Of a DNA stretch of 64,000 nucleotides, positions 8,800-55,852 are shown piece after piece. The position numbers were made by a program, and so were the translations under genes. The DNA is taken from the NCBI RefSeq assembly GCF_002370355.1, contig NZ_AP017929.1:1054001-1118000 (forward strand), read 5' to 3'. The stretch's first letter is position 1. The number at the start of each line of letters is the position of its first letter. This stretch comes from Latilactobacillus sakei subsp. sakei DSM 20017 = JCM 1157. Its GTDB lineage: Bacteria > Bacillota > Bacilli > Lactobacillales > Lactobacillaceae. Under the pieces are notes generated by a model. That model saw nothing but the letters and a program-made list of their open reading frames with translations, searched no databases and was not told the DNA's origin.

Positions 8800-9407
8800 T
8801 GACTTATTTCCTAGGCTTAACTGGTGGTATTGCTACCGGTAAAACAACTGTTTCGCAAATGCTAGCGCGACAAGGTATTCCTATTATTGATGGGGATCAA
8901 GTCGCACACCAAGTGTTGGCGGATAATCAAAGTGTGCAAGAACAGATTCAAGCCACTTTTGGGAAGCAGCTTGTGCAAAACGGTAAAGTTGATCGGGCAG
9001 CTTTGGGCAAATTGGTCTTTGGCAATCAAGCCGTATTAGCGCAACTCAACGCGATTACCGCACCGGTCATTCGGGAGACGATTATGACCGAGATGGCTCA
9101 GGCCAAAGCGCACCAAGTACCGCTAGTTGTTTTGGACTTACCGTTGTTATATGAACAGCACTACGAAACGGTTTGCGACGGGGTGTTAGTCGTTTATTTG
9201 CCGGTTGAAAAACAATTAGCGCGATTAATGGCGCGGAACCAATTAAGTCGCGAAGATGCTTTGAAACGGATTAACAGTCAAGCATCATTGGCTGAAAAAC
9301 GGGATAGAGCAGACTTCGTGATTGATAACCAAGGCTCACTGGCTCAATTGAAAGCCCAATTAAAGACAGTTTTGGAAGGCGTGCACCATAAGTCGGGTAT
9401 GTCCTGA
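8799..9407 (+). CDS. coaE: Dephospho-CoA kinase
   Basis: CoaE phosphorylates dephospho-CoA at the ribose 3'-OH, the last step of coenzyme A synthesis. The P-loop GLTGGIATGKTT lies at the N-terminus, followed by the substrate region DGDQVAHQVL and the lid segment LMARNQLSREDALKRI; the length is 202 residues. The last nine residues (GVHHKSGMS) and the stop codon fall inside an intergenic repeat whose near-identical copy at 29214 is non-coding. The original C-terminus therefore seems to have been replaced when the repeat arrived. The function should be intact because the kinase core ends earlier. Confidence 0.96.
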   Translation: MTYFLGLTGGIATGKTTVSQMLARQGIPIIDGDQVAHQVLADNQSVQEQIQATFGKQLVQNGKVDRAALGKLVFGNQAVLAQLNAITAPVIRETIMTEMAQAKAHQVPLVVLDLPLLYEQHYETVCDGVLVVYLPVEKQLARLMARNQLSREDALKRINSQASLAEKRDRADFVIDNQGSLAQLKAQLKTVLEGVHHKSGMS

Positions 9408-9505
9408 GGATTAACACAGAATGGTGAATGATTGCTGGAAGCAATCGTTTGACATTCAGGGTTAACCGGAAGGATATGACTTATAGAACACGTTTATACC
9501 ACCAA
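9381..9505 (+). repeat. Intergenic hairpin repeat, copy 1 (coaE 3' end)
   Basis: This copy matches the one at 29214-29333 with only three differences over about 110 bases. It folds into a long imperfect hairpin: TAAGTC pairs with GACTTA near the ends, GATTAAC with GGTTAAC further in, and GATTGC with GCAATC at the tip. It begins inside coaE and includes its stop codon. Confidence 0.85.
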
Positions 9506-9518
9506 TGTTCGGATACCG

Positions 9519-9563
9519 AAAAGGAGCTGAAGACAAAATTACTTTTGTCCCAGCTCCTTTTTT
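9519..9563 (+). terminator. Intrinsic terminator after coaE
   Basis: The arms AAAAGGAGCTG and CAGCTCCTTTT enclose an inner GACAAAA / TTTTGTC stem and are followed by more T residues. It lies just downstream of repeat copy 1 and ends the polA-mutM-coaE unit. Confidence 0.88.
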
Positions 9564-9564
9564 G

Positions 9565-9620
9565 ATCTATTTGCACCATGCAGTAAATGCGCAAAAGTAA
9601 CCTGGTGCGATAGTACTCTG
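9565..9620 (-). repeat. Intergenic hairpin repeat, partial copy 2
   Basis: On the minus strand this partial copy begins with AGAGTACTATCGCACC and shares TTACTTTTGCGCATTTACTG with copy 4 (9744-9862). It lacks the distal GCACGTTT end. Confidence 0.6.
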
Positions 9621-9738
9621 AAACGTGGACTACCAACCTGATTCCTGTGGTTAGCGATGTCAGTCAAACAACCGATTGCATCGGTTATTCGCCTAACGCT
9701 GCTAATCCTCAGAATCAACCCGGTTGGTAACGCACGCT
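9621..9738 (-). repeat. Intergenic hairpin repeat, copy 3
   Basis: Read on the minus strand, this copy has the GATTCTGAGGATTAGCAG segment, a tip hairpin GAATAACCGATGCAATCGGTT and ends in CCACGTTTC. It belongs to the GAGGATTA subtype seen also at 29214 and 38882. Confidence 0.75.
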
Positions 9739-9743
9739 GGTTA

Positions 9744-9862
9744 AAACGTGCCTCTCGCATCAACTTTTTGTGCTTTACCACGGTGTGCGAACAATCGACT
9801 GTGTCGCTTATTCACACCACTCAGTAAATGCTCAAAAGTAACCCGGTGCGATAGGCACTCTG
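9744..9862 (-). repeat. Intergenic hairpin repeat, copy 4
   Basis: On the minus strand it runs from GAGTGCCTATCGCACC to GGCACGTTT. The tip is a strong hairpin in which GTGTGAATAAGCGAC pairs with GTCGATTGTTCGCACAC. Together with copies 2 and 3 it fills most of the 548-bp space before nrdR. No gene is supportable in this space. Confidence 0.75.
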
Positions 9863-9955
9863 TTGCATGTCATGTTATAATATTGTTATACTGTCTGTTT
9901 AGAATAGTAAAATACAATTAATATTCCTTAAATTAAAAGATAAGAAGGTGTCTTT

Positions 9956-10429
9956 ATGCTATGTCCACATTGCCATCAAAATAGTTCACGGGTAATTGAT
10001 AGTCGACCAACAGATGAAGGACGCGTTATTCGGCGTCGTCGCGAATGCGAAAATTGTCAATTCCGGTTTACAACTTTTGAAAGGGTGGAGCAAACACCGT
10101 TATTAGTCATTAAGAAAAATGGGACCCGTGAAGAGTTTAACCGCGATAAATTATTACGTGGTTTAATCCGGGCTGCCGAAAAGCGACCTGTTACGATGGA
10201 ACAAATGACTGAAATTGTTGATGAAGTTGAAAATAAAATCAGGGCATTAGGCGAAAACGAAGTATCGTCACAAGCTGTCGGCGAATACGTCATGGCCGTT
10301 TTACCAGGTGTCGACGAGATTGCGTATATTCGTTTTGCTAGTGTCTACCGTCAATTTAAAGACATGAATGTCTTTATGGCGGAATTGCAAGAAATGATGA
10401 AAAAAGAAAAGGCTAAAGACCAAGATTAG
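9956..10429 (+). CDS. nrdR: Transcriptional repressor NrdR
   Basis: NrdR represses ribonucleotide reductase genes in response to ATP/dATP. The 157-residue protein has the N-terminal zinc ribbon with cysteines C3, C6, C31 and C34, followed by an ATP-cone domain ([20 protein letters not shown]). An AAGAAGGTG ribosome site precedes the ATG. It lies 17 bases before dnaB, the conserved nrdR-dnaB-dnaI order of Bacilli, and links dNTP supply to replication initiation. Promoter-like AT-rich sequence (TTATAATATTGTTATA region, about 9875-9890) lies upstream, but I cannot fix the -35/-10 pair. Confidence 0.96.
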
Positions 10430-10446
10430 TCGAAAGGAGTTAGCGG

Positions 10447-11826
10447 ATGTCAGATGCATTTGATTATTTAAGTCCTAAAGATGGGTTTATGGTGACAAAA
10501 GCTAACTATTTGAGCGATTTTGATCAAACAGTCGTCACCTATTTATACCAACCACTGATGGGGGCTGTCGCGTACAGTCTCTATCTTTTGTTATGGAGCC
10601 AATCAACACAGGCCAAGAGTCAAATGACTTTCCAAACGCATGCGACCTTGTTGAATTTATTAGGGGTTGATTTGCCGGCTTTTTATGACGCGCGCAATAA
10701 GTTAGAAGCGTTAGGCTTAATGCGGACTTATCAGAAGAATAACAATACGGGCCGCAATCTGGTGTATGAATTATACGCACCAATGCAGCCACATATTTTC
10801 TTCAATGATGATTTGTTGAGTGTCATTTTATACGAATCAGTCGGTGAGAAGCGGTTTATTGAATTGAGAGAGCATTTTAAACTACAACCAGTGCGCTCTA
10901 AGGAATACGAAGAGGTCACGAAGAACTTCTTGACGGTCTTCCACGTTCAAAATGATCATTTAACAACGGCCCCTACGGCAGTTGCTGAGGCACAAAGTAC
11001 GTATCAACAAAAAAAGGCGCAAAAACCAAGTTTCACGTCAGTTGAGTTGCGCACTTTTGATTGGGCTTTATTACAAGAAGTGGTTGCACAGAATCAAATC
11101 GATACGGATGAAATTTTACGTAATGAGCAACGATTATTTAATTTGCATTATTTTTACGGATTAGACGAAATGGAATTGGGACGCTTAATCGGCCTCACCA
11201 TGGATGTTGCCGACAGTCGGGTCAATATGGATGCGTTAGAACAAAACGTTTTGAATAATTATACGCGCCGACATAGCGTTCAAAATAACAGTGAACAACC
11301 GGCTAAAAAACCGCTTGAGACGCTACAAAAAGAATGGCAAAAAGCCGGCTTTAATGAAAAAGAAATGCAGTGGTTAACCGAAAGTCAGCAGTATTTACCA
11401 GTTGATTATTTGGAATATCTTAAGCAAAAAAATCATGGCTTTGTGGCGAAAAATGAAATTCGCGCATTACGTGACTTACAAAATCGCTATATCTTTAACA
11501 ACGATGTTTTAAATATCTTAGTGGTTTACATCATTAGTCAGTATGAGGGCCTAACACAAGCTTTGTTAGATCGAATCGCCAATCAATGGGCGCAACAAGG
11601 GGTTAAGACGTCAGCTGACGCTATTTTACAAATCCGTGATTTCCAAACCAAACAAGAAACGAAACAAACTAAACGACAACCGCGCTATCAAGCCAAGACC
11701 AAGCAAGAAACTGTGCCTAAATGGGCCAAGTCTGATTATCAAGCGCCACAAACCACATCAAGTAAGGCGGATCAGCAAGAAATTGATCAATTACTCAAGA
11801 AAATCCGTGAAGGGCGGGAATCATAA
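10447..11826 (+). CDS. dnaB: Replication initiation and membrane attachment protein DnaB
   Basis: This is the Firmicute DnaB, a helicase co-loader working with DnaD and DnaI at oriC; it is not the replicative helicase. The 459-residue protein starts with the winged-helix part of the DnaB/DnaD family (SPKDGFMVTKANYLSDFDQT). The C-terminal half has the DnaD/DDBH2-like helices, with the segment NDVLNILVVYIISQYEGL matching the YxxxIxxxW-type region. The end is basic and Gln-rich. The ribosome site GAAAGGAG lies upstream, and the stop overlaps the dnaI ATG by one base. Confidence 0.95.
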   Translation: MSDAFDYLSPKDGFMVTKANYLSDFDQTVVTYLYQPLMGAVAYSLYLLLWSQSTQAKSQMTFQTHATLLNLLGVDLPAFYDARNKLEALGLMRTYQKNNNTGRNLVYELYAPMQPHIFFNDDLLSVILYESVGEKRFIELREHFKLQPVRSKEYEEVTKNFLTVFHVQNDHLTTAPTAVAEAQSTYQQKKAQKPSFTSVELRTFDWALLQEVVAQNQIDTDEILRNEQRLFNLHYFYGLDEMELGRLIGLTMDVADSRVNMDALEQNVLNNYTRRHSVQNNSEQPAKKPLETLQKEWQKAGFNEKEMQWLTESQQYLPVDYLEYLKQKNHGFVAKNEIRALRDLQNRYIFNNDVLNILVVYIISQYEGLTQALLDRIANQWAQQGVKTSADAILQIRDFQTKQETKQTKRQPRYQAKTKQETVPKWAKSDYQAPQTTSSKADQQEIDQLLKKIREGRES

Positions 11827-12752
11827 TGGAAAATATGGGCAAAGATTTAACCGACTATATGAACCGGCAACGCCTGAATCAACGCTTTAATAAATTGGTT
11901 GAAGAAGCCTTGCAAGATCCTGATGTGCAGGCCTTTATTCAGGCTAATCAGGCCGCCCTATCACAAGAAACAGTGGCGCGCAGTGCAGCTAAAATCTATG
12001 AATATGTCAATGAAAAAAAGAAAATTTTAAACGGTGAAACAACGTTGGCACCAGGTTATGCGCCTAAGTTGGTGTTGAGTAACCACTTTATCGATGTTAG
12101 TTATGAACCAACGGCGGATCTAGTTCAAAAACGCGCACAAGCCGAATTGAAGGCCCGTGTGAAGTCGATTAACATGCCTAAGGACATCGTTGAAGCGAGC
12201 CTCGCACAATATGATGCCAGTGAGCGCCAAGTGCCGTTAATCGAAGCGTTGAAGTTTGTCGAAGCTTACCGGCAAGCACCCACTGATTTTCATCAAGGCT
12301 TATATTTAAGCGGGCAGTTTGGTGTTGGTAAGACTTATCTACTGGGCGCAATCGCTAATGAATTAGCACTACAAGGCTTTGAAACGACGTTGATCCATTT
12401 CCCGACCTTTGCAGTTGAGATGAAAAATGCGATTGGCCAAAATAACGTCCTCGAAAAGGTCAACCAAATCAAAAAAGCACCAATTTTAATGATTGATGAT
12501 ATCGGTGCGGATGCCTTGAGTGCTTGGGTTCGGGATGAAGTATTAGGCATTATTTTGCAATACCGGATGCAAGAACAACTAGCGACTTTCTTCAGCTCTA
12601 ATTTTACGATGAACGAATTGGAGAAACATTTAACAACCAGTCAGCGTGGCGATGAAGAACCGGTGAAGGCTGGTCGAATTATGCAACGCGTGCGTTATTT
12701 AGCCCGTGAGGTTGAAGTCAGCGGTCAAAATAGACGTTTACAATCAAATTAA
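11826..12752 (+). CDS. dnaI: Primosomal protein DnaI (helicase loader)
   Basis: DnaI is the AAA+ ATPase that loads the replicative helicase DnaC. In this 308-residue protein the N-terminal helicase-binding region precedes the Walker A motif GQFGVGKTY (Lys about 169) and Walker B ILMIDDIGAD, with the sensor region SSNFTMNELEKHL. The ATG overlaps the dnaB stop, so translation is coupled; a second in-frame ATG lies at 11835. No terminator is seen between its stop and the thrS T-box leader. Confidence 0.96.
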   Translation: MENMGKDLTDYMNRQRLNQRFNKLVEEALQDPDVQAFIQANQAALSQETVARSAAKIYEYVNEKKKILNGETTLAPGYAPKLVLSNHFIDVSYEPTADLVQKRAQAELKARVKSINMPKDIVEASLAQYDASERQVPLIEALKFVEAYRQAPTDFHQGLYLSGQFGVGKTYLLGAIANELALQGFETTLIHFPTFAVEMKNAIGQNNVLEKVNQIKKAPILMIDDIGADALSAWVRDEVLGIILQYRMQEQLATFFSSNFTMNELEKHLTTSQRGDEEPVKAGRIMQRVRYLAREVEVSGQNRRLQSN

Positions 12753-12789
12753 TACTTGCGTAAAGTCAGATTAAGTGTTTTAATAGAGT

Positions 12790-13027
12790 CAATCAACGAT
12801 GAAAGATACCTTTTAAATGGCAATATTGATCAGGGAGAAAAACATAACTGAAAGTTTTTCATAAGGACATTTAATTGACCACTTTCTAGAGGCTTAAGTC
12901 AGTCGGGTCGTTTCCGTTAAAGACGCTTAAAGTTGGAGAATCAGTGTTTGATTCTCAATCTGGGTGGAACCGCGAAATCAATTCGTCCCTGAGGTGCATA
13001 TTTGTATGCGTCTCAGGGACTTTTTTT
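12790..13027 (+). promoter_or_regulatory. T-box leader of thrS
   Basis: This leader senses uncharged tRNA-Thr. Stem I begins with GATGAAAGAT and contains the AGGGAGAAAAAC motif; the T-box sequence TGGGTGGAACCGCG lies at 12961-12974. It is followed by a terminator whose arms GTCCCTGAG and CTCAGGGAC span 12985-13020, with seven T residues. A candidate specifier is ACC at 12878-12880, a Thr codon as expected. Promoter candidates upstream are weak (TTGCGT at 12756 and TTTAAT at 12779, 17-base spacer). Confidence 0.93.
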
Positions 13028-13063
13028 ATTGTTGATTACAAAAATAAGAAGGAGTGTTCAAGC

Positions 13064-15034
13064 ATGGCAGAAATTCAATTAACTTTTCCAGATGGTGCTC
13101 AAAAAACATTTGAGCAAGCAACAAGTTTACTAGACGTTGCAAAATCAATCAGTACGAGCTTGGCAAAAAAGGCAATCGCCGGAAAATTTAACGGTGAAGT
13201 GGTTGATTTACAACAACCACTTTTGGAAGACGGGGCAATCGAAATCATCACTAAAGATGATCAAGCGGTTAACCTAACTGCCACTTGGCATACTGCAGCT
13301 TTCGTATTAGCTGCTACTTTAAGTCAACACTATCCAGAAATGCAATTTGGCGAAGTAATGGCAACCGAAGATGGTTTCTATTACGATACAGATAATGAAG
13401 CTGGCCAAGTTGCTGTAACAGATTTACCAGAAATCAAAACAGAAATGGCTAAATTAATCCAATCAGGTGAAGCAATTTCACGTGTCAGTGTTTCAAAAGA
13501 TGACGCTAAGAAATTATTTGCCGGCCAAACTTATAAACTTGCTTTATTAGACGAAGTTGAAGCTGACCAAGTTTTAGTTTACCAATTAGGTGACTACTCA
13601 GACTTTAGCTTAGCACCAATGTTAGGTAAAGTCAGTGACGTTAAATTCTTCGAATTATTATCAGTTGCTGGTGCTTATTGGCAAGGTAAATCAAGTAACC
13701 AAATGTTACAACGGATTTACGGGACAGCTTATCCTAAACAAGAAGAACTTGATGCTGATTTGAAACGTCGTCAAGAAGCTAAGGAACGCGATCACCGTGT
13801 TATCGGTAATCAATTAGACTTATTCTTCGTTGATCCTAAGGTTGGCGCAGGCCTTCCTTACTGGTTACCAAATGGTGCTACAATTCGTCGTTCAATTGAA
13901 CGTTACATCATTGACAAAGAAGTTGCTAATGGTTACGAACATGTTTACACACCAATCTTGGCTAACTTAGACTTGTACAAACAATCAGGTCACTGGGATC
14001 ACTATCGTGAAGACATGTTCCCACCAATGGACATGGGCGATGGCGAAATGCTTGAATTACGTCCAATGAACTGCCCATCACATATCCAAGTTTACAAACA
14101 TCACCCACGCTCATACCGTGAATTACCAATTCGGATTGCTGAACTTGGTATGATGCACCGTTATGAAAAATCAGGTGCACTTTCAGGCTTACAACGTGTC
14201 CGTGAAATGACTTTAAATGATGGTCACACATTCGTTCGTCCTGATCAAATTCAAGATGAATTTAAATCAATCTTAGGGCTAATGATCGATGTTTATGCTG
14301 ACTTTAACATCAATGATTACACATTCCGTCTAAGTTATCGCGATCCTGCTAACACAGAAAAATACTTCGACGATGATGAAATGTGGAACAAAGCACAAGC
14401 GATGTTGAAGGGCGCTATGGATGATCTTGGCTTAGACTATGTCGAAGCTGAAGGCGAAGCTGCTTTCTACGGTCCTAAATTAGACGTTCAAACAAAGACG
14501 GCTATGGGGAATGAAGAAACACTTTCAACAATCCAATTAGACTTCATGTTGCCAGAACGTTTTGACCTACACTATGTTGGTGAAGATGGCGAAATGCATC
14601 GTCCAGTTATGATTCACCGTGGTTTAGTGTCAACAATGGAACGTTTCACAGCTTACTTAACAGAAATCTACAAGGGCGCTTTCCCAACATGGTTAGCACC
14701 AACACAAGCTGTTATCATTCCAGTTAAGAACGATCTTCACTATGATTACGCTAAAAACATCAAAGATGAAATGATCAAACGCGGTTTACGTGTTCGGATC
14801 GATGATCGTAATGAAAAAATGGGTTATAAGATTCGTGAAGCCCAAACAAGCAAGATTCCATATACATTAGTTGTTGGGGATCAAGAACTTGCACAAGCAA
14901 CAGTTTCTGTCCGTAAATACGGTGAAGAAAATGCGGTTGAAGAAGCCTCAGACATGTTTATCAACGCAATCGTAGCAGAAGTTGGTAACTATAGCCGAGA
15001 CGGCAAACAACACGCAAAGAAGATTAATCTATAA
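13064..15034 (+). CDS. thrS: Threonyl-tRNA synthetase
   Basis: ThrS charges tRNA-Thr. The 656-residue protein has the N-terminal TGS domain ([11 protein letters not shown]), an editing domain, the class II core with the zinc-ligand segment [13 protein letters not shown] and motif 2 ([19 protein letters not shown]), and the anticodon-binding domain ([16 protein letters not shown]). The start at 13064 follows an AAGAAGGAG ribosome site; an upstream in-frame extension would read through the T-box and is rejected. A hairpin repeat begins two bases after the stop codon. Confidence 0.97.
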
Positions 15035-15035
15035 A

Positions 15036-15152
15036 GAGTGCGTTACAACTGATTGATTCTGAGCATTTGCACAGCCTAGCGAATAAGCGGTATTTACCGC
15101 TTATTTGATAGGTGACGCAAAGCGCAGGAATCAAGTTGTAAAAGCACGTTTC
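15036..15152 (+). repeat. Intergenic hairpin repeat, copy 5 (thrS 3' end)
   Basis: It begins GAGTGCGTTACAACTG and ends AAAGCACGTTTC. The ends pair (TACAACTGATTGATTC with GGAATCAAGTTGTA), as does the tip (GAATAAGCGG with CCGCTTATTT). The TGAGCATTTGC segment marks the second subtype of the family. Confidence 0.85.
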
Positions 15153-15157
15153 AAAAA

Positions 15158-15198
15158 GAGTGCGTTCAAAGCGGGTAGCTTCTGAGAATTAGCATTCT
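15158..15198 (+). repeat. Intergenic hairpin repeat, partial copy 6
   Basis: A second, truncated unit follows copy 5 in tandem (GAGTGCGTTCAAAGCGGGTAG, then TGAGAATTAGCATT). The junction GCACGTTTCAAAAAGAGTG recurs in similar form at 55785-55805. Confidence 0.65.
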
Positions 15199-15199
15199 T

Positions 15200-15243
15200 A
15201 AAAAGGCGTTAAATCAATTTATTTTGATTTAACGCCTTTTTTT
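15200..15243 (+). terminator. Intrinsic terminator for thrS
   Basis: The 16-bp arms AAAAGGCGTTAAATCA and TGATTTAACGCCTTTT are followed by more T residues. Confidence 0.92.
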
Positions 15244-15254
15244 ACGTCTTTTAG

Positions 15255-15302
15255 TTGTGCACAATTAAAAAAGAGGTATAATAATAGTTGTAAACGATTT
15301 CA
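15255..15302 (+). promoter_or_regulatory. Lactate oxidase promoter with CcpA cre site
   Basis: TTGTGC (15255-15260) and TATAAT (15277-15282) are separated by 16 bases. TGTAAACGATTTCA at 15289-15302 matches every fixed position of the catabolite-responsive element consensus TGWAANCGNTNWCA. It covers the expected transcription start, where CcpA binding represses. The ribosome site GGGGG follows at about 15317. Confidence 0.8.
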
Positions 15303-15329
15303 TAATTGATAATTAATGGGGGTTTTATT

Positions 15330-16436: not shown

Positions 16437-16461
16437 TTTCTGAAAATCAGTTGGGATTACC

Positions 16462-16490
16462 TTGACTTTAAAACTTAAACCGAGTATACT
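16462..16490 (+). promoter_or_regulatory. Promoter of infC-rpmI-rplT
   Basis: TTGACT (16462-16467) and TATACT (16485-16490) are separated by exactly 17 bases. This is one of the best matches to a SigA promoter in the window. Confidence 0.8.
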
Positions 16491-16494: not shown

Positions 16495-16670
16495 TTCGTT
16501 GAGAAATAAAGCAGAAGTTCCCGCTTCTCGCCTTAGTAGACACTTGATGTCTCTGGGCTGATAGTTTCTAATTCGGACGAATTAAGTTATCGAATAGCGG
16601 GCCTTTCTGTTGAAGGGGCCGTTTTTTTGGTGCTTAGCTGCATTTTCTCTCTAAATTTTATGGAGGTGAA
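16495..16670 (+). promoter_or_regulatory. infC (L20-type) attenuator leader
   Basis: A structured leader of about 170 bases precedes infC. It contains a local hairpin near 16511-16525 (AGAAGTTCCCGCTTCT), a region TGATAGTTTCTAATTC that can pair with GAATTAAGTTATCG, and an intrinsic terminator at 16598-16628. This is the layout of the L20 leader of Bacilli, in which ribosomal protein L20 promotes premature termination. The assignment rests on position and on the terminator; I did not verify the L20-binding fold. Confidence 0.7.
16598..16628 (+). terminator. Terminator within the infC leader
   Basis: The arms CGGGCCTTTC and GAAGGGGCCG, with a short TGTT loop, are followed by seven T residues, 48 bases before infC. 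It probably serves as the regulated stop in the leader and may also end lactate oxidase transcripts, for which no other terminator is seen. Confidence 0.8.
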
Positions 16671-29333: not shown

Positions 29334-29354
29334 CCATTAATATTTGGATATCGA

Positions 29355-29395
29355 AAAAGAGGCACAGACAAAATCATTTTGTCTGTGCCTCTTTT
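29355..29395. terminator. Bidirectional terminator between covS and yidC
   Basis: The arms AAAAGAGGCACAGACAAAA and TTTTGTCTGTGCCTCTTTT form a 19-bp perfect stem. It lies between convergent genes and has A and T runs on both sides. Confidence 0.93.
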
Positions 29396-29406
29396 AGTAT
29401 TTCTAA

Positions 29407-32719: not shown

Positions 32720-32734
32720 AAAGTTTATAGACAA

Positions 32735-32940
32735 AGATGAAAAAGAGTAACCTAACAACCAACTTTCAGGGAGAATAATCATAGACTGCAAGTTATTCAG
32801 TTGAGTTTAGGTGAAGTTCACTTTCAGAGTTGACCGTTGAGTCCGGTATTGCCCGTTACGCAAACTTGAGTGTATGACTAGGTCATAAACTAGGGTGGTA
32901 CCGCGAAGCTTCGTCCCTTTTGAGGACGAGGCTTTTTTTG
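32735..32940 (+). promoter_or_regulatory. T-box leader of pheST
   Basis: The leader senses uncharged tRNA-Phe. Stem I starts at GATGAAAAAGAGTA and contains CAGGGAGAATAATC. The sequence GTGAAGTTCAC holds a TTC Phe specifier at 32817-32819. The T-box AGGGTGGTACCGCG is at 32892-32905, and the terminator arms GCTTCGTCC and GGACGAGGC with a T run end at 32939. Confidence 0.95.
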
Positions 32941-38882: not shown

Positions 38883-38999
38883 AGTGCGTCATTAAGCGGG
38901 TGCAACCTGAGGATTAGCCTAATAGGGCGGATAAGCGACGATAGTCGATTATTTGACCTATGTAGCTAACCGGAAAAGACAGTTTGAGAAGCACGTTTC
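38882..38999 (+). repeat. Intergenic hairpin repeat, copy 8 (greA 3' end)
   Basis: It runs from GAGTGCGTCATTAAGCGGG to GAAGCACGTTTC and contains CCTGAGGATTAGCC. The tip ATAAGCGA-CGATAG-TCGATTAT is a hairpin. It begins within the greA stop codon. Confidence 0.85.
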
Positions 39000-39017
39000 A
39001 AAAATAACCTGCTAACT

Positions 39018-39059
39018 AAAAGGGTCGGGACAAAGTTAATTTGTCCCGGCTCTTTTTTT
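39018..39059 (+). terminator. Intrinsic terminator for greA
   Basis: The arms AAAAGGGTCGGGACAAA and TTTGTCCCGGCTCTTTT are followed by T residues, downstream of repeat copy 8. Confidence 0.9.
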
Positions 39060-39080
39060 AGTTGAACTTTTATAGTCTGA

Positions 39081-39194
39081 ACGTGCTCTGTAACCCATAT
39101 CCTTTCGGTTAACCCTGAGCACCAAACAATCGCCGTGCGATTATTCGTCACTCTGTGTTAATCCTCAGGATATAACCGGGGTTACGACGCACTC
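39081..39194 (-). repeat. Intergenic hairpin repeat, copy 9
   Basis: On the minus strand it reads GAGTGCGTCGTAACCCCGG, TATCCTGAGGATTAACACAG, a tip hairpin around TAATCGCACGGCGATTG, CAGGGTTAACCGAAAGGATA and ends AGAGCACGTTC. It is close to copies 1 and 7 in the TGAGGATTAACACAGA and AGGGTTAACCG segments. Confidence 0.82.
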
Positions 39195-39203
39195 TTATTT
39201 TAA

Positions 39204-39317
39204 ATGTGCTTTTTGAAACTGACTTCTGTGCTTTGCTAAACTTATCAAACCGGTCATTTCATCACCAATTCGCTAAGTTCTGCAAATGCGCAAAAGTTAA
39301 CCACTGACAACGCACTC
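39204..39317 (-). repeat. Intergenic hairpin repeat, copy 10
   Basis: On the minus strand it starts GAGTGCGTTGTCAGTGG and contains TTAACTTTTGCGCATTTGCAG and GAATTGGTGATGAAATGACC, ending near CAAAAAGCACA. It belongs to the GCATTTGC subtype with copies 4 and 5. Copies 8-10 fill the 522-bp space between greA and liaF, in which I see no gene. Confidence 0.75.
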
Positions 39318-39345
39318 TTTTTATGTTAATCAGCCCCTAGACTGA

Positions 39346-39374
39346 TTGGCGTTTAATGATTAAGCTTGTATAAT
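39346..39374 (+). promoter_or_regulatory. Promoter of liaFSR
   Basis: TTGGCG (39346-39351) and TATAAT (39369-39374) are separated by exactly 17 bases, 30 bases before liaF. Confidence 0.7.
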
Positions 39375-48272: not shown

Positions 48273-49336
48273 ATAAATTAGGACGATTAACGTTAGCAAT
48301 CCTCGTCGTCTGTGCAGCCCTTTGGTTCGGGACGGTTCAGCTACAAAAATCGCAAGGTTATACGAAAAATAATACATTAACCCTCTATAATTGGGGCGAT
48401 TATATCGACCCATCATTAATTAAGAAGTTTGAAAAGCAAACCGGCTATCACGTTTCGGTTGAAACCTTTGATAGTAATGAAGCGATGTACACTAAGATTA
48501 AACAAGGTGGCACGGCTTACGATTTGGCAGTTCCCAGTGAATATATGATTGAAAAAATGCGGAAGGCCAATCTTTTGAAACCAATCGATCATTCACGCTT
48601 AACCGGCTTTCAAAACATTGGCAAACCTTATTTGAACCAACCATTTGACCCGGGCAATAAATACTCACTCCCTTATTTCTGGGGAACATTAGGTATTATC
48701 TATAATGATCAATTAGTCGATCAGCCCTTAACGCATTGGTCCGATTTATGGCAAGCGAAATATCGCGGTAAAATCATGGTCGTCGATAGTGCGCGGGACA
48801 TGATGGCGGTGGGCTTGATTGAAAACGGTCAGTCCGTTAATAGTACCAACCCAGTGGCGTTAAAAGCCGCTAAAGCCCGTCTTGATCAGATGGCACCCAA
48901 TGTTAAGGCGATTGTTGCCGATGAAATTAAGATGTACATGGTTCAAAATGAAGCGAGTGTCGCTGTGACCTGGTCCGGTGAAGCGGCTGAAATGTTAGCC
49001 AATAACAAACACTTGCACTATGTGATCCCAGAAGAGGGGAGTAACGTTTGGTTTGATAACCTCGTGATTCCAAAGACAGCTAAACATACTAAAGCAGCCT
49101 ATGCCTTTTTAAACTTCATGTTAGAACCTAAGAATGCGGCGCAAAATGCGGAATACATTGGCTATTCAACACCGAATATGCCGGCTAAAGCGTTATTGCC
49201 GGCAGCAACCCGGAATAATCCAGCCTATTACCCAAGTCAAAAAGTGCTGAATAAACTACAAGTTTATAGTGATTTATCACCTGAGATGGTTGGTCTATAC
49301 AACGATTTATTCCTAGAATTTAAGATGCAACATTAA
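48269..49336 (+). CDS. potD: Spermidine/putrescine-binding protein PotD
   Basis: This 355-residue solute-binding protein delivers polyamines to PotBC. The mature part starts LTLYNWGDYIDPSLIKKFEK; the polyamine-site segments WGTLGIIYND, MVVDSARDMM and VTWSGEAAEML are present. The N-terminus (LTLAILVVCAALWFGTVQL) has no proper lipobox before its only Cys, so anchoring by an uncleaved signal segment seems more likely than by lipid. It ends the pot operon; no terminator is obvious. Confidence 0.94.
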   Translation: MNKLGRLTLAILVVCAALWFGTVQLQKSQGYTKNNTLTLYNWGDYIDPSLIKKFEKQTGYHVSVETFDSNEAMYTKIKQGGTAYDLAVPSEYMIEKMRKANLLKPIDHSRLTGFQNIGKPYLNQPFDPGNKYSLPYFWGTLGIIYNDQLVDQPLTHWSDLWQAKYRGKIMVVDSARDMMAVGLIENGQSVNSTNPVALKAAKARLDQMAPNVKAIVADEIKMYMVQNEASVAVTWSGEAAEMLANNKHLHYVIPEEGSNVWFDNLVIPKTAKHTKAAYAFLNFMLEPKNAAQNAEYIGYSTPNMPAKALLPAATRNNPAYYPSQKVLNKLQVYSDLSPEMVGLYNDLFLEFKMQH

Positions 49337-49371
49337 TTGTGAAGCTATCAGCAAACAAAAAGGCTTCATGG

Positions 49372-49377
49372 TATAAT
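49372..49377 (+). promoter_or_regulatory. -10 element of the cdaA operon
   Basis: A perfect TATAAT lies 31 bases before the cdaA ATG, 35 bases after potD. The -35 is not clear. Confidence 0.5.
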
Positions 49378-49408
49378 GGAAAAAGAAATTTTTTGAATGG
49401 AGGTCACC

Positions 49409-50248
49409 ATGTCAGTTGATTGGGCACAATTGTTAACCTGGCGCATGTTAGCCAATATTTTGGATATCATTGTGGTCTGGTATTTTATTTATAAATTAAT
49501 CATGTTGATTCGGGGCACGAAAGCCGTGCAGCTTTTCAAAGGCATCATGGTCATTGCCATCATCAAGATTGTCAGTTGGTACCTTGGTCTAAGAACCGTT
49601 TCGTACATCATGGATCAATTTATCAGTTGGATTGTGATTGCGTTAATCGTCATCTTCCAACCAGAAATTCGTCGTGGTTTGGAACATATCGGGCGCGGTT
49701 CGCTATTGATGCGGGGCAACAATCCTAAGCTTGAAAAAGAAAATAACTTGATTAAAGCCTTAGATAAGGCGATTCAGTACATGTCCAAGCGGCGAATTGG
49801 GGCATTGATTACCATTCAGATGAATACCGGGTTAGAAGATTATATTGAAACCGGGATTGATTTGGATGCTGATGTGACGGGGGAATTATTGATTAATATC
49901 TTTATTCCCAACACGCCACTGCATGATGGGGCCGTTATTATTCGCGAGGATAAGATTGCCGTTGCGGCGGCTTACTTGCCACTGTCAGAAAGTAATCTAA
50001 TTCCTAAGGAACTGGGGACGCGGCATCGTGCGGCTGTCGGGATTAGTGAAGTAACGGACGCGTTGACGATCGTTGTTTCTGAAGAAACCGGTGGTGTCAC
50101 GTTAACCAAGAATAACGAATTGATGCGCGACTTAACGCGGGAAGATTACTTGAAATACTTAAACTCACACTTAATTACGCAAGAAGAAGATAAGGTGAGC
50201 CTATTACAAGAATTCGTCGACGGCTTCAAAAAAGGAGGCCATAAATAA
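49409..50248 (+). CDS. cdaA: Diadenylate cyclase CdaA
   Basis: CdaA makes the second messenger c-di-AMP, which controls potassium, osmolyte and wall homeostasis. The 279-residue protein has three N-terminal TM segments (residues about 10-95) and the DAC domain with the motifs DGAVIIRED and RHRAAVGISE. ATG 49409 follows GGAGG. It shares one base with the start of cdaR; cdaA-cdaR-glmM is the conserved Firmicute module. Confidence 0.97.
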   Translation: MSVDWAQLLTWRMLANILDIIVVWYFIYKLIMLIRGTKAVQLFKGIMVIAIIKIVSWYLGLRTVSYIMDQFISWIVIALIVIFQPEIRRGLEHIGRGSLLMRGNNPKLEKENNLIKALDKAIQYMSKRRIGALITIQMNTGLEDYIETGIDLDADVTGELLINIFIPNTPLHDGAVIIREDKIAVAAAYLPLSESNLIPKELGTRHRAAVGISEVTDALTIVVSEETGGVTLTKNNELMRDLTREDYLKYLNSHLITQEEDKVSLLQEFVDGFKKGGHK

Positions 50249-51397
50249 TGAAAAACTTTATAGAAGGGCCTTGGTTGTACCGGATATTAGCGCTTTTCTT
50301 ATCGTTACTCCTTTTTAGCTACGTTAATATTGATAAAATTAATACCACGCGCCAAATTAATAATAACAACACACAAATGTTAGCGACACGCAGTGAAACC
50401 GTGAAGGTCCCGTTGCAAATTAATGCGGATACCGATAAATACTTTATTACCGGTTATCCTCAAAAAGTTAAAGTAACCTTATCAGGTCCTAATGCGTTGA
50501 TTACATCTGCTGTTAATACGTTGAATTTTCGGGTGATTGGTGATTTAACGAAGCTAGGTGCTGGGACGCATACGGTTAAATTAACACAAACCGGGATTAA
50601 CAAAGACATCAAAGTGAAGATTGAACCAGCTACAATCAAGGTTAAAATTGAACATAAATTGACTAAGGAATTCCCAGTACAAGTTAACGTCAAGGAAGAA
50701 AATTTGGCGACTGGCTATAGTATTGGCAATCCTAAGATTAGTCAAGATGTCGTGCAAGTCAGTGGTGCCAAGGCAGCTGTTAATTCAGTTGCACGAGTGG
50801 TAGCGACAATTGATCCTGATAAAGGGACCAAAAATGATATTAATGAAGAAACACTTCTACAAGCGGTTGATCGTAATGGTAAGACGGTGAATGTTTTAAT
50901 TTCACCTCAAACGGTTAATATTAAAATTGCCGTTCAGATGAATAAAAAAACGGTCCCGTTGAGTCTACAAAAAAACCGGTGAGAGGAGTGGCTACGAATA
51001 CACATTGAGTTCAGAAACTGAACAAGTAACCGTGTATGGGAAGAAACAAACCTTAGCGACTTTAACAGACTTACCGGTAACGATTGATATGGCGGATATC
51101 ACTAAAGATACGACGCGTACGGTGACTTTGACGCTTCCAAGTGGCGTCTATGACAGTCATCCTAAACAGGTGAAGGTCAATATTAAGGTGACAGCACCAA
51201 CTGGGATGACGACTAGTCGTACAGAAACAACGACGCAGTCTTCATCGGAGTCGACGACTTCAATGAGTCAAAGCCAAGTGCAAAGTAGTAGCAGTAGTAC
51301 GACAAGTGAGAGCCAGACGACTGATAATAATCAAAGCAGTGAGTCAAGTAGCAGTAGTGACAGCTCAAGCAGTACAGCAAATACGAACGAATCATAA
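50248..51397 (+). pseudogene. cdaR: CdaR (YbbR-domain regulator of CdaA), frameshifted at an A7 run
   Basis: CdaR is the extracytoplasmic partner that modulates CdaA. An N-terminal TM anchor (YRILALFLSLLLFSYVNI) is followed by YbbR repeats. The frame stops at 50980-50982 after LSLQKNR, yet the +1 frame continues the YbbR fold (TGERSGYEYTLSSETEQVTV) to 51397 and ends in a Ser/Thr-rich tail. Removing one A from the run at 50967-50975 (seven A residues) restores one reading frame of about 382 codons. It may be a sequencing error, a phase-variable or slippage-expressed gene, or a true loss of the last YbbR domain. The first 244 residues form the part readable without a shift. Confidence 0.85.
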
Positions 51398-51431
51398 AAC
51401 GTTTAAGAAGATGGAATGGAGATAATTAGAC

Positions 51432-52784
51432 ATGACAAAATATTTTGGAACTGACGGTGTACGTGGCGTTGCTAATCTAGAATTAAGCCCAGAAATGGCA
51501 TTTAAATTAGGTCGCGCTGGCGGCTACGTTTTAACAAAACATGCTGATAAAAACCAACGGCCTAAAGTGTTAGTTGCTCGCGATACACGGATTTCAGGAC
51601 AAATGTTGGAACAATCTTTAATTTCTGGCTTATTGTCAGTCGGGATTGAAGTCCTATCATTAGGCGTCATCACAACGCCAGCGGTTGCTTATTTAATTAA
51701 GGTTCAAGAAGCAAGTGCCGGGATCATGATTTCTGCATCACATAACCCCGCTATTTATAATGGGATTAAATTCTTCGGAGCTGATGGTTATAAATTACCA
51801 GATGCCACTGAAGAAGAAATTGAAGCTATTTTAGATGCACCAGAAGATACATTACCACGTCCAGAAGGTGAAGGCCTTGGGACTGTTGAAGAATATCCAG
51901 AAGGTGCTTTGAAATATACACAATTCTTGGAACATACAATTCCTGATGATTTAGAAGGCTTAAAAGTGGCTGTTGATGGCGCTAACGGCTCAACAAGTGG
52001 TTTGATTAGCCGGGTCTTTGCTGATTTAGAAACTGATTTCACAACAACTGCTACTCATCCTAACGGTTTAAATATCAATGATGGTGTGGGTTCAACTCAT
52101 CCTGAAAACCTTGTTAAAAAGGTTTTGGAATCAGGCGCTGATATGGGCTTAGCTTTTGATGGTGATGGCGATCGTTGTATCGCAGTCGATGAATTAGGGA
52201 ACATTATTGATGGCGACAAGATCATGTTTATTTTGGGTCACTATCTTTCTGAAAAAGGTCGTTTGAAACAAGATACAATTGTCACAACAGTGATGAGTAA
52301 CATTGGCTTGTATAAAGCAATTGAAGCTAATGGAATGAAATCTGCCCAAACAGACGTTGGTGATCGCCACGTCGTTGAAGAAATGCGCGAAAAAGGCTTT
52401 AACTTAGGTGGCGAACAATCTGGCCATATTATTATTTTTGATTACCATAACACTGGTGACGGGATGTTAACTGGGATTCAATTAATGAATGTCATGAAAC
52501 AAACCGGTAAGAAGTTATCAGAATTGGCAGCCCCAGTTCAAACTTACCCACAAAAATTAGTTAACTTAACAGTTAAAGACAAGGATGCTTGGTTAACAAA
52601 TGATAAGATCCAAGCCGCTATTGATACTGTTGAAAAAGAAATGAACGGTGATGGCCGCGTCTTGGTTCGTCCTAGTGGGACAGAACCACTATTACGTGTC
52701 ATGTGTGAAGCCGCTACTGAAGAAAAGGTTAACCAATATGCGGACCAAATTGCCGCAGTCGTTCAATCTGAAATTGGTGAATAA
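51432..52784 (+). CDS. glmM: Phosphoglucosamine mutase
   Basis: GlmM converts glucosamine 6-phosphate to glucosamine 1-phosphate for UDP-GlcNAc synthesis. The 450-residue protein starts [13 protein letters not shown]; the phospho-serine motif ISASHNPA (Ser about 103), metal-binding DGDGDR and sugar-binding GEQSGH are intact, as is the C-terminal [12 protein letters not shown]. It binds CdaA in relatives and thereby links c-di-AMP to wall synthesis. A hairpin repeat follows its stop. Confidence 0.97.
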
Positions 52785-52792
52785 TTAAAAAA

Positions 52793-52905
52793 GAGTGCTT
52801 TGGGTTGCGGGTAGCAACTGAGCATTAATACAAAATTGCCAGTGATCCAGGGTTTTAGGATTACTGGCAATTTTAGATTAAGCGGAAGTTGTTATACAAA
52901 CTGGA
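52793..52905 (+). repeat. Intergenic hairpin repeat, copy 11 (glmM 3' end)
   Basis: It starts GAGTGCTTTGGGTTGCGGG, keeps the AACTGAGCATTAAT segment and ends with AAGCGGAAGTTG. Its tip is an unrelated but strong hairpin (AAAATTGCCAGTGATCC with GGATTACTGGCAATTTT, 52832-52874). This tip may serve as the 3' end signal of glmM, which lacks any other terminator. Confidence 0.7.
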
Positions 52906-53018
52906 GAATATTATGATAGTATGGGTGCGCAAAAAAGGCTGATAGATAGTTCTGGAAAGAATTCCGATAGATTTAGATTTTTAGATGGAAACTCGGCATT
53001 GAAATAGGAGGAATAATT

Positions 53019-53201
53019 ATGAAATTAGCGTTGTATAAGGCTATTGGGAATTTTGCAACAGAGGTAATTATTTTAGGAATTATATATTTTGGGTTGGTTT
53101 TTTTAAAGGTTCTCCCTTTAGATATTAATTGGTGGTGGCTTCTAACCGTCTTAACTATTATTTTTGTTGCGCAATTTGGTTATTTCTACTTAAGAAAGTA
53201 A
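53019..53201 (+). CDS. Small two-TM membrane protein
   Basis: I do not recognise a family. This 60-residue protein has two hydrophobic segments (EVIILGIIYFGLVFLKVL and WWWLLTVLTIIFVAQFGYFYL) and a basic end (RK). A strong AGGAGG ribosome site precedes the ATG. Base composition is richer in A+T than neighbouring genes, and its flanks (52906-53018, 53202-53280) hold no other gene. It is co-directional with glmM and glmS but probably independent of them. Confidence 0.65.
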   Translation: MKLALYKAIGNFATEVIILGIIYFGLVFLKVLPLDINWWWLLTVLTIIFVAQFGYFYLRK

Positions 53202-53280
53202 TGTTGGTTATGTATTAAATAAAAGGGGATAAAATGTATTAGGCCCTATCAAGTTGATATATATAATTGAATGTTTTTCT

Positions 53281-53325
53281 AAAATGGCCTTACCCAGTAT
53301 TCATCTGAGGTAAGGCCATTTTTTT
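53281..53325. terminator. Bidirectional terminator
   Basis: The arms AAAATGGCCTTAC and GTAAGGCCATTTT enclose a 17-base loop with a T tail. It lies between the small membrane protein and the convergent gene ending at 53338. Confidence 0.9.
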
Positions 53326-53337
53326 GTGCCTATGATT

Positions 53338-53673
53338 TTAATGCCAAGTGATTTGTTGATACATCAAAAAACTAAAAGTAATCAACAAGACAATCGCAGC
53401 GGAGATGTAATACCACTCTTTAACAAGAATCATCGGCGCCTCGGTTAACGAGAAGTTGCGGCGATAGCGTTTGATGCTGAGGATACTGACTTCATTGACG
53501 ATTATCAATAAGAGTGGTTCGAGGAGCAACATGAAGCGACTACCAGATGAATCAACGACGTTATCAGCGGTGATATGTAAGGCGACGGTCTGAGGGGCAA
53601 CCAAGATGAAACCCAACCCGACTAGTAACCCGATTAGCGAAATGAGGCGAAGCATTAGAATAGCTTTTTTCAT
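53338..53673 (-). CDS. Membrane protein, DUF1648-like
   Basis: This 111-residue protein has three hydrophobic segments (LMLRLISLIGLLVGLGFILVA, MLLLEPLLLIIVNEVSIL, YISAAIVLLITFSFLMY). The turn VALHITADNVVDSSGSRF resembles the DUF1648 motif (VPIHFN..G..D..G) at the start of SdpI-type immunity proteins, but the rest of SdpI is missing. ATG 53673 is preceded by GGGAG. The function is unknown; it is divergent from glmS. Confidence 0.65.
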   Translation of the reverse strand: MKKAILMLRLISLIGLLVGLGFILVAPQTVALHITADNVVDSSGSRFMLLLEPLLLIIVNEVSILSIKRYRRNFSLTEAPMILVKEWYYISAAIVLLITFSFLMYQQITWH

Positions 53674-53741
53674 GACCAAGACTCCCAATTAAGTTTTGAA
53701 TAGGTCTAGTATAGCATAATTTAATAGGATTCATTCAGGAC

Positions 53742-53827
53742 TATACCAATGTTTTGTATTGATATATACCAATAAAAATGTTGACAATAAAAACGTTGGT
53801 GTTATTATATTTAAGTGTTATACCAAT
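53742..53827 (+). promoter_or_regulatory. glmS promoter with three TATACCAAT motifs
   Basis: TTGACA (53781-53786) and TATTAT (53803-53808) form a promoter with a 16-base spacer. TATACCAAT occurs three times, at 53742-53750, 53765-53773 and 53819-53827, all in one orientation, upstream of the -35 and downstream of the -10. The complement ATTGGTATA matches the half-site of GntR-family NagR/DasR operators, regulators that sense GlcN-6-P or GlcNAc-6-P. Repression of glmS by amino sugars through NagR is the inferred role. Confidence 0.65.
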
Positions 53828-53869
53828 TAAATTTAAAAATAAAACCAAAGAGAAAAAGAGGAATTTGAT

Positions 53870-55684
53870 ATGTGTGGAATTGTCGGTGTGATTGGTAAAG
53901 AAGATACGACTGAAATTTTATTAAATGGTTTAGAAAAATTAGCTTATCGGGGTTATGATTCAGCTGGGATTTATGTTAATAGTCAAAGTGGTCGCGATTA
54001 TTTGGTTAAAGAACCAGGTAAAATTAGTGTTTTAAAAGCCGCAGTTGGTCCTGAAGTACAGGGTACAATTGGTGTTGGTCATACACGTTGGGCAACGCAT
54101 GGTGTTGCAAGTCAAGCCAATGCTCACCCACACGTTTCAGAAGATGGCCGTTTTTACTTGGTCCACAACGGCGTTTTAACAAACTACGCTGAATTACGTG
54201 CAACTTATTTAAGCCAAGTCAACTTTGCAAGTGAAACAGATACTGAAGTGGCAGTTCAATTAATCGCTTATTTAGCTAAGACAGAACAACTATCAGCTAA
54301 GGAAGCTTTCCGCAAGGCCCTAACCTTGATTGAAGGCTCATACGCCTTTGTCATGATTGATCGGAACGATCCGGAGACGTTATACGTGGCTAAGAATAAG
54401 TCACCATTATTAATTGGTGTCGGTGCTGATTTCAACGTTGTTTGTTCAGATGCTTTAGCGATGTTAAACGAAACCAAAGACTTTATTGAAATTCACGACC
54501 GCGAAATGGTCACTCTTAAAAAGGACAAGGTTGAAATTGAAGATTTAGACGGGACTTTCATTCACCGTGATAGCTACCATGTTGACATGGATGCCAGTGC
54601 AGCCGGCAAGGGGACTTACCCCCATTACATGTTAAAAGAAGTTGACGAACAACCCGCAGTAATGCGCCGTTTGTTAACCGAATATGTGGATGACGCTGGT
54701 CAAATGAAAATCGATCCAGCAATTCTTAAGGCAATTGATGACGCAGACCGGATTTACATTGTGGCAGCCGGGACAAGTTACCACGCCGGTTTAATTGGTC
54801 AATCATTATTTGAAAAATTAGCGGAAAAACCAGTGGAAGTTCATGTGGCGAGTGAATTTGGCTATCACATGCCAATTCTATCGAAGAAACCATTCTTCAT
54901 TTTCCTAACACAAAGTGGTGAAACAGCTGATAGTCGTCAAGTATTGGTGCAAACGAATAGATTAGGTTATCCAAGTTTAACAATTACTAATAGCCAAGGG
55001 TCAACCCTTTCACGAGAAGCCAATTATACATTGTTGCTTCATGCGGGTCCTGAAATTGCGGTCGCTTCAACGAAGGCTTATACAGCTCAAATTGCAGTTG
55101 AATTATTCTTAGCAGTAGCACTTGGTCGCCATACCGCTATCAAGGCCGCCCAAGATTTCGACGTTAATCATGAGTTGGCTTTAGTCGCAACTGGCATGGA
55201 AACTTTATTGAGTGAAAAACAAGCGATTGAAGATTTCACAACGATGTACTTGAAGACAACGCGCAATGCCTTTTACATCGGCCGTGGCGAAGATTATGCT
55301 TTGAGTTTAGAAGCTGCCTTGAAGTTGAAGGAAATTTCATATATTCAAGCAGAAGGCTTTGCTGCCGGTGAATTGAAACATGGGACGATTGCCTTGATTG
55401 AAGATGGCACACCAGTGATGGCCTTCTTAACAGATGCTAAGACGATCGATCATACGCGGGGCAACTTGCAAGAAGTTCGCGCACGTGGCGCTAAGACGTT
55501 AACGATTGTCAGCGAAGATCACGCACAAGCTGGCGACCAAGTCATCTTACCAAATGTTAATCCATTACTAGCACCATTATTAGGGATCATCCCAGGACAA
55601 CTGATTGCTTATTATGCAAGTCTTCAAAGAGGCTACGACGTTGACCAACCAAGAAACCTAGCAAAAAGTGTTACAGTAGAATAA
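53870..55684 (+). CDS. glmS: Glutamine-fructose-6-phosphate aminotransferase (isomerizing)
   Basis: GlmS makes glucosamine 6-phosphate from fructose 6-phosphate and glutamine, the entry to wall amino sugars. The 604-residue protein starts MCGIVGVIG, so Cys is the glutaminase nucleophile; GHTRWATHG and the two SIS domains (AAGTSYHAGL, TQSGETADS) follow, ending in DQPRNLAKSVTVE. No glmS ribozyme is seen upstream. A repeat starts directly at the stop codon. Confidence 0.97.
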   Translation: MCGIVGVIGKEDTTEILLNGLEKLAYRGYDSAGIYVNSQSGRDYLVKEPGKISVLKAAVGPEVQGTIGVGHTRWATHGVASQANAHPHVSEDGRFYLVHNGVLTNYAELRATYLSQVNFASETDTEVAVQLIAYLAKTEQLSAKEAFRKALTLIEGSYAFVMIDRNDPETLYVAKNKSPLLIGVGADFNVVCSDALAMLNETKDFIEIHDREMVTLKKDKVEIEDLDGTFIHRDSYHVDMDASAAGKGTYPHYMLKEVDEQPAVMRRLLTEYVDDAGQMKIDPAILKAIDDADRIYIVAAGTSYHAGLIGQSLFEKLAEKPVEVHVASEFGYHMPILSKKPFFIFLTQSGETADSRQVLVQTNRLGYPSLTITNSQGSTLSREANYTLLLHAGPEIAVASTKAYTAQIAVELFLAVALGRHTAIKAAQDFDVNHELALVATGMETLLSEKQAIEDFTTMYLKTTRNAFYIGRGEDYALSLEAALKLKEISYIQAEGFAAGELKHGTIALIEDGTPVMAFLTDAKTIDHTRGNLQEVRARGAKTLTIVSEDHAQAGDQVILPNVNPLLAPLLGIIPGQLIAYYASLQRGYDVDQPRNLAKSVTVE

Positions 55685-55792
55685 GAGTGGTTTTAAAACT
55701 CTGAGGATTAGCTCAGGGAGACAAATAAGCGATGGAATCGATTATTTGTCTAACGTGGCTAAACGGAAGAAGCTAGTTTTAAAGGCACGTTT
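55685..55792 (+). repeat. Intergenic hairpin repeat, copy 12 (glmS 3' end)
   Basis: It begins GAGTGGTTTTAAAACTCTGAG directly after the stop codon. The tip is CAAATAAGCGA paired with TCGATTATTTG, and the end is AAGGCACGTTTC. Confidence 0.85.
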
Positions 55793-55798
55793 CAAATA

Positions 55799-55852
55799 AG
55801 AGTGGTCTTAAAGCTCAATCAGATTTTGAGCATTAACTTAGAGTGACGAATA
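55799..55852 (+). repeat. Intergenic hairpin repeat, partial copy 13
   Basis: A truncated tandem unit (AGAGTGGTCTTAAAGCTC, then TGAGCATTAACTTAGAGTGACGAAT) follows copy 12 across the same kind of junction as at 15152-15158. Confidence 0.65.

Follow-up and report, generated by a model that had tools for sequence, protein, structure and literature searches.

The ERIC or IRU repeats of enterobacteria are described as mobile intergenic elements of about 127 bp that form a single long stem-loop; an orientation-dependent effect on upstream mRNA has been reported, and TA termini with a target duplication are listed (PMC2229807, PMC2267715). The palindromic YPAL (RU-2) elements of Yersinia measure ~168 bp, carry no TA termini and have duplications of 3-26 bp; their targets span or adjoin a dyad symmetry, they were judged recently mobile, and they have been linked to upstream genes (PMC2229807). 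Here, we describe a family of hairpin repeats, hereafter units, recognized in a stretch of 64,000 nucleotides (the window; positions 1,054,001-1,118,000 of contig 1, NZ_AP017929.1) in the 1.94 Mb genome of Latilactobacillus sakei subsp. sakei DSM 20017 = JCM 1157. These units work like ERIC and YPAL but fail, or leave open, defining points of each.

Like ERIC, each unit is a single long imperfect intergenic hairpin of similar length, but no constant TA was seen at their ends (by eye), and they commonly stand in tandem arrays and abut stop codons; the two were compared by description only. They resemble YPAL in adjoining dyad symmetry in the majority of runs of same-strand units (56/94), not in all, and differ from it in their length of ~123 bp, their arrays and their Lactobacillaceae hosts. 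EFAR, which is the same element as Efa-1, inserts into stem-loops, and the units are like it in being structured, intergenic and found in the Lactobacillales. Efa-1 of Enterococcus is, however, a pair of adjacent stem-loops of 163 nt (PMC3733652, PMC2267715), whereas the unit is one hairpin. REP sequences measure 20-40 bp, carry GTAG/CGTC tags, are associated with IS200/IS605-type transposases and can supply stop codons (PMC3733652). The units are likewise hairpins near gene ends that are able to supply stop codons, but they are ~123 nt long, end in GAGTG and carry no GTAG/CGTC tag, and the six genomes of this genus gave no Y1 transposase match. With miniature inverted-repeat transposable elements (MITEs) they share dispersal, near-identity and the absence of an open reading frame (ORF). 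The attC sites of integrons form head-to-tail arrays with shared ends and are folded imperfect hairpins with extrahelical bases; the units also form head-to-tail arrays of unlike members with shared ends, but their spacing of mostly 121-127 bp leaves no room for cassette ORFs, and no attC core was shown.

The accessible parts of a MITE review (PMC10969869) and a structured-RNA survey (PMC2864571) name no such element. A full-text literature search returned no named lactobacillus element of this form, although subscription papers lie mostly outside that search and a description may exist. Rfam release 15 gave no repeat match at gathering score in the window, and the best hits for four loci and one window stretch at E up to 10 were at most 28 bits, far below gathering scores. 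No Rfam match thus rose above chance. The original prediction would have been refuted by an existing family or by a lack of further copies, and neither was found.

The original prediction listed 13 repeat sites in the window, all of which are real: ten are full units and three are truncated near the hairpin tip. It also anticipated further copies, and in the own genome, with 150/1487 candidates scored with the covariance model R1, 149 full-length copies were obtained at E<=4.3e-9. Rescanned array loci yielded six further full-length matches of 54-87 bits, and the total is therefore at least 149. Units are 114-136 bp long in this genome, and those of the window 114-123 bp, which corrects the earlier estimate of 110-120 bp. 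The 149 copies group into 88 arrays, 48 of one unit, 24 of two, 11 of three and 5 of four, with a start-to-start spacing that is mostly 121-127. Their distribution along the chromosome is uneven, with 67/149 copies in 0.7-1.1 Mb, a fifth of the chromosome, and two in 1.3-1.6 Mb.

The covariance-model search of the Lactobacillaceae that had been proposed was run and matched 136/301 genomes of the family and 20/40 genera; 11 candidates were scored per genome, so that absence of units in a family genome is weak evidence. In a search of relatives, R1 matched 15/41 genomes, including 6/6 of the genus with the own genome counted, and 1/16 genomes outside the family gave three weak matches (best 2.6e-5). 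In an order-wide sample of 246 genomes, in which inclusion of E. faecalis is not established, 12 matched at E<=1e-5, all 12 within the family, and no match fell outside it. A pattern scan of named genomes found at least 80 loci, 76 of them in Latilactobacillus, Levilactobacillus, Loigolactobacillus, Lapidilactobacillus, Lactiplantibacillus, Pediococcus, Paucilactobacillus and Liquorilactobacillus; the other four lie in unrelated records where R1 finds nothing, and were taken as chance. The units are a Lactobacillaceae-wide family of repeats.

Carriage by phages or plasmids was considered and rejected. Viral contigs held no exact pattern match, and a phage search with one query gave no match. 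Another query matched two Latilactobacillus curvatus records labelled as plasmids, from which the stretches fetched carry housekeeping genes. These records (CP117684.1, 592 kb, with ccpA and murI; NZ_CP016468.1, 220 kb, with uvrA and prfB) are possibly split chromosomes. They were dropped as a same-species comparison, most pieces being 73-88% identical and one 1.9-kb piece 97%.

The unit is a single imperfect palindrome of ~123 nt running from (A)AGAGUG to CACGUUU, or AAAGAGTG to CACGTTT in DNA letters. Each of the ten window units folds below all 200 of its dinucleotide shuffles (z -3.9 to -9.3), and RNAalifold on the alignment of these ten (A1) gave 27 pairs, 20 with compensatory changes. 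Pairing extends to the 150 own-genome matches (A2), where paired cells reach 95.9% versus 73.3% when shuffled, with double changes in 30/35 pairs, and to 138 matches in other genera (A3), with 94.2% versus 65.5% and double changes in 35/35 pairs. These counts used all rows of alignments that were fitted to the model and are thereby biased towards pairing; in slid controls 33-47% and 37-44% of cells were paired. Rows beyond the first 143 of A2 and the first 100 of A3 are reverse-strand shadows, partial copies and weak matches, and were excluded from the counts of strand, conservation, tip loops and orthologues. The ratio of G-U to A-C was 504:49 in the 143 and 313:32 in the 100 rows, and one strand is therefore the structured strand.

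Read along this strand, the unit begins with the (A)AGA-GUG foot and an arm, on which a side bulge CGG (G 0.96 in A2) and a stem of 7 bp follow. Next come a 2x3 loop (GA / R-S-A), a bulged A with two pairs before it and five pairs (UUARC/GYUAA) after it, and a 3x3 loop, and then a long apical stem, usually with a 3-nt tip in the own genome, before the return to CAC-GUUU. In the own-genome rows the unpaired G (0.99) and A (0.97), the bulged A (0.98) and the 3' A (1.00) are conserved, and most pairs vary. Because the pattern used to fetch the A3 loci itself fixes part of the mid-stem core, core conservation in A3 is partly forced; 9 of the 80 loci, from Latilactobacillus, were excluded. In some Pediococcus copies the foot GUG/CAC is changed to GAG/CUC or GGG/UCC with the pairs kept (by eye).

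The tip is a triloop in 115/143 own-genome copies, and 82 of these are GNA with all four middle bases in use. Triloops were found in 4/41 terminators. GNA triloops are very stable in DNA, and this leans towards folded DNA; against it, GNRA and UNCG loops are absent from the 41 terminators too, and in other genera only 42/100 copies have triloops. The tip is therefore taken as a hint.

Placement was analysed for 148/149 copies (one lacked flank) in 94 same-strand runs, with genes called by a simple longest-ORF rule; the six copies from the rescan, which would join up two pairs of runs, are counted neither in arrays nor in runs. The unit is sense to the upstream gene in 77/94 runs. In 62 runs that gene's stop codon has its end at -5..+10 relative to the first base of the unit, and the two are often fused (offset -4: 16, -3: 8). 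Between codirectional genes, 47 runs were sense versus 13 antisense (p 1.2e-5), and between genes of unlike direction 29 runs were convergent versus 4 divergent. A terminator-like hairpin follows within 180 nt on the 3' side in 56/94 runs versus 8/94 shuffled sequences and 23/94 upstream flanks. All five mixed arrays consist of + and then - units that face each other, with a terminator-like hairpin between them where the sequence was read, and reversed units lie beyond terminators. Among 87 runs in other genera, for which 100/138 A3 matches were used, 55 were sense to the upstream gene, 25 were not and 7 had no gene in reach; the stop codon lay within -8..+12 in 30 of the 55. At the abutting stops of the own genome TAG was not significantly enriched (15/62 vs 15/89 controls), and from the absence of TGA (0 of 62 vs 9/89) no claim is drawn.

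The terminator-like hairpins at 9519-9561 and 29354-29397 of the window, and similarly that at 39018-39056, share the tip GACAAAA..TTTTGTC. The first two also share the preceding spacer (like ACCATCAATATTCGGATATC), and the base of the stem differs by site. A strict pattern for this tip occurs at 28 places in the genome versus 1 for its backwards control. Hairpins with this tip are a second repeat family that rides with the units.

Near-identical units stand at unrelated sites. Identity of at least 90% was found for 62/10,470 pairs from different arrays, reaching 97.5% in unrelated flanks, and for 4/87 pairs within arrays; among the 45 pairs listed, likeness usually stops at the unit ends. In 50 adjacent pairs with less than 85% overall identity the ends (left about -3..+14; right -14..0 and +3..+7) are more alike than in random pairs, and the interiors mostly are not. 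Comparison of the same sites, which had been suggested for strains, was made between relatives and revealed differences by whole units. The sister genome (G001, ~93% identical) has units or remains at 6/6 window sites, in different numbers and types. Of two ~79% relatives, G003 is empty at 4/6 window sites and G002 at 4/5 readable sites (by eye); the gap from stop codon to terminator at empty sites is roughly 4-15 nt in G003 and ~32 nt at one G002 site. The sister comparison took 480 kb of its genome, and 40/88 arrays were alignable for this reason: 8 were equal in length, 12 differed by one to three whole units, where about 3 would be expected by chance (own arithmetic), and the other 20 differed otherwise.

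In 31 orthologous units, filtered at 85% identity or more, single changes between Watson-Crick and G-U pairs numbered 34 versus 11 between Watson-Crick and A-C, and one double change kept its pair. Among C/T changes the ratio in favour of kept pairs was 20:5 (p 0.004), and no excess of C/T was seen at unpaired sites. Substitutions amount to 2.9% at paired and 4.8% at unpaired sites, and to about 6.7% in the flanks. On these sequence comparisons the structure of the hairpin appears constrained at fixed sites.

On balance we consider it probable, with considerable reserve, that the units are non-autonomous mobile hairpins working in the manner of ERIC/YPAL, which insert beside dyad symmetry and are kept as hairpins of the 3' untranslated region (3'-UTR) or between cistrons. 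One may envisage an enzyme that would recognise the folded strand through its ends, the 2x3 GA/RSA loop and the bulged A, and would add new units where a hairpin already stands, at the 5' foot of a terminator or of an earlier unit. Arrays would then run head to tail in the space from stop codon to terminator, with reversed ones beyond the terminator. Resident copies would be transcribed as 3'-UTR or intercistronic hairpins, and may be retained through an effect on mRNA 3' ends, much as reported for ERIC.

Several observations weigh against this explanation. The units are not sense to the upstream gene in 17/94 runs, and by the strict rule 38/94 runs lack a terminator, 20 of these 38 being flanked on both sides by genes on the same strand as the unit. 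Among 829 neighbouring ORFs from 159 stretches no transposase or recombinase was seen (best 25 clusters, by eye). In one subtype the likeness between dispersed copies continues into the spacer and terminator, and the moving piece may therefore sometimes be larger than the unit. Five sites are free of units in the sister genome and four of the five keep a left-arm stub (by eye); because stubs remain, many of the length differences may reflect loss by deletion between repeats and not insertion. The comparison with the sister species likewise showed stubs at the junctions and no clean target duplication, a feature that the original prediction had proposed to look for. Within the 31 orthologous units, single changes that created or abolished a pair numbered 24, as against 34 that kept it, and the A/G class is not significant on its own (14:6, p 0.12). 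It must also be noted that the low rate of substitution could stem from gene conversion.

A mover gene beside the arrays was rejected as a candidate, since the neighbour clusters look ordinary: by eye, the best 25 recurring ones resemble transporters, two-component systems and similar ordinary families. A Y1 transposase was rejected for the genus, since PF01797 gave no match at E<=1e-5 in 6/6 of its genomes, all rich in units.

The original prediction left the choice between a MITE-like element and a chromosomal RNA element. Features of both are supported. On the RNA side, structure is conserved on one strand and apparently constrained at fixed sites. One may thus propose a purely cis-acting 3'-UTR element that binds a protein or RNase, with copies that arise by duplication and gene conversion under host selection and without dedicated mobility. 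Sense-strand placement at stop codons, wobble-tolerant covariation, near-invariant unpaired bases, the signs of constraint and the housekeeping type of the upstream genes in the window all agree with this proposal, but near-identical single units at unrelated sites require a dispersal step, unlike neighbours differ in their interiors about as much as random pairs do, and 13/60 codirectional runs are antisense; we regard it as unlikely. The MITE side is carried by the near-identical single units at unrelated sites and by orthologous sites that often differ by whole units. A classical MITE, with terminal inverted repeats, a clean target duplication and a known transposase, is not shown. That the units are old MITE debris from a classical DDE transposase (e.g. 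IS630-like) with no present function seems improbable to us: their size, intergenic position and lack of an ORF fit descriptions of MITEs (PMC3733652, PMC2229807), and the dispersal of near-identical units also fits this reading, but no constant TA or other duplication was seen at the ends (by eye), mid-stem loops are conserved and not terminal repeats alone, the structure is apparently still constrained at fixed sites, and the units are oriented towards terminators.

Recognition of a folded strand would account for the bulges, the strand bias and insertion beside hairpins if the units were REP-like and moved by a Y1 (IS200/IS605, RAYT) transposase. REPs can likewise supply TAG stops (PMC3733652), and some other unit-bearing genera have Y1 genes; the six unit-rich genomes without a PF01797 match, and the occurrence of this family in genera without detected units, nevertheless make such a mover very improbable. 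Replication slippage and recombination at palindromes could by themselves generate stubs and internally deleted units, as well as the four within-array pairs of at least 88% identity, one of them at 100% and one skipping a unit. We doubt strongly that these processes built the arrays alone, since dispersal to unrelated loci, and unlike neighbours with shared ends, are left unexplained. More speculatively, and in our estimate unlikely, the units could be cassettes without cargo, in which a recombinase would act on folded single-stranded DNA, read the ends, the mid-stem loops and, in this genus, the GNA tip, and insert in fixed orientation at the foot of a hairpin, be it a terminator or a unit. 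If true, transcript ends in a large part of a bacterial family would carry integron-like arrays of unlike units.

At least 149 copies in this genome, mostly where mRNAs should end, would mean that lactobacilli have a large layer of 3'-UTR structure that has gone unrecognised, and would also be a source of genome and strain variation. Fast turnover of whole units makes the old question of the movement and persistence of ERIC/YPAL-like repeats directly testable in bacteria that are easily grown, and the units may serve as a marker for strain typing.

The window copies and the hairpins between them are collected in the table. Under full scoring over the window the ten full units reach 81-126 bits in the covariance model, a match by construction as the model was built from these same ten. 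The truncated copies at 9565, 15158 and 55799 were recognised by eye; the second scores 29 bits, and the other two are absent from the model matches listed up to E 10 in the window. Upstream genes in the window are coaE, greA and genes of thrS, arlS kinase, phosphoglucomutase and glmS type, none of them mobile. The original prediction placed all copies between genes or at a gene end, which needs amendment for the copy at 9375: its first part (9375-9407) encodes the last codons and stop of coaE and is not purely intergenic, and two ~79% relatives end this gene differently.

Table. Units and terminator-like hairpins of the window (positions counted from its first nucleotide)
Position	Strand	Feature	Score or basis
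9375..9497	+	Full unit; supplies C-terminal codons and stop of coaE	118 bits
9519..9561	.	Terminator-like hairpin, bidirectional, with GACAAAA..TTTTGTC-type tip; lies between convergent units	sequence reading
9565..9618	-	Truncated unit, left arm only, ends near hairpin tip	by eye
9619..9741	-	Full unit	117 bits
9742..9864	-	Full unit directed at the terminator; upstream of nrdR	106 bits
15032..15153	+	Full unit directly behind thrS-type stop codon	114 bits
15154..15199	+	Truncated unit (left arm) abutting terminator-like hairpin at 15200-15241	29 bits
29210..29332	+	Full unit after arlS-type kinase gene; then spacer and terminator-like hairpin	126 bits
38878..39000	+	Full unit, fused to the TAG stop of greA	104 bits
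39018..39056	.	Terminator-like hairpin between convergent units	sequence reading
39077..39198	-	Full unit pointing to hairpin 39018..39056	106 bits
39200..39321	-	Full unit, tandem	101 bits
52789..52905	+	Variant unit behind phosphoglucomutase/phosphomannomutase-type gene; apical hairpin long, degenerate at right end	82 bits
55681..55794	+	Full unit fused to stop codon of glmS-type gene	91 bits
55795..55855	+	Truncated unit running into terminator-like hairpin	by eye

The variant at 52789-52905 belongs to a subtype in which a long apical hairpin is followed by TTTT inside the unit, resembling a terminator set within the hairpin, and the same subtype recurs in other species of the genus. In the region 52789-53320 the degenerate right end of the variant is followed by sequence that the sister genome does not have here and that includes a small ORF, membrane-like by eye. 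The region behind greA (38883-39350) holds units of different types or degenerate remains in 4/4 species compared. The window also contains ordinary RNA leaders, namely a T-box at 32725-32921 and an L20 leader at 16503-16634, its only Rfam matches at gathering score.

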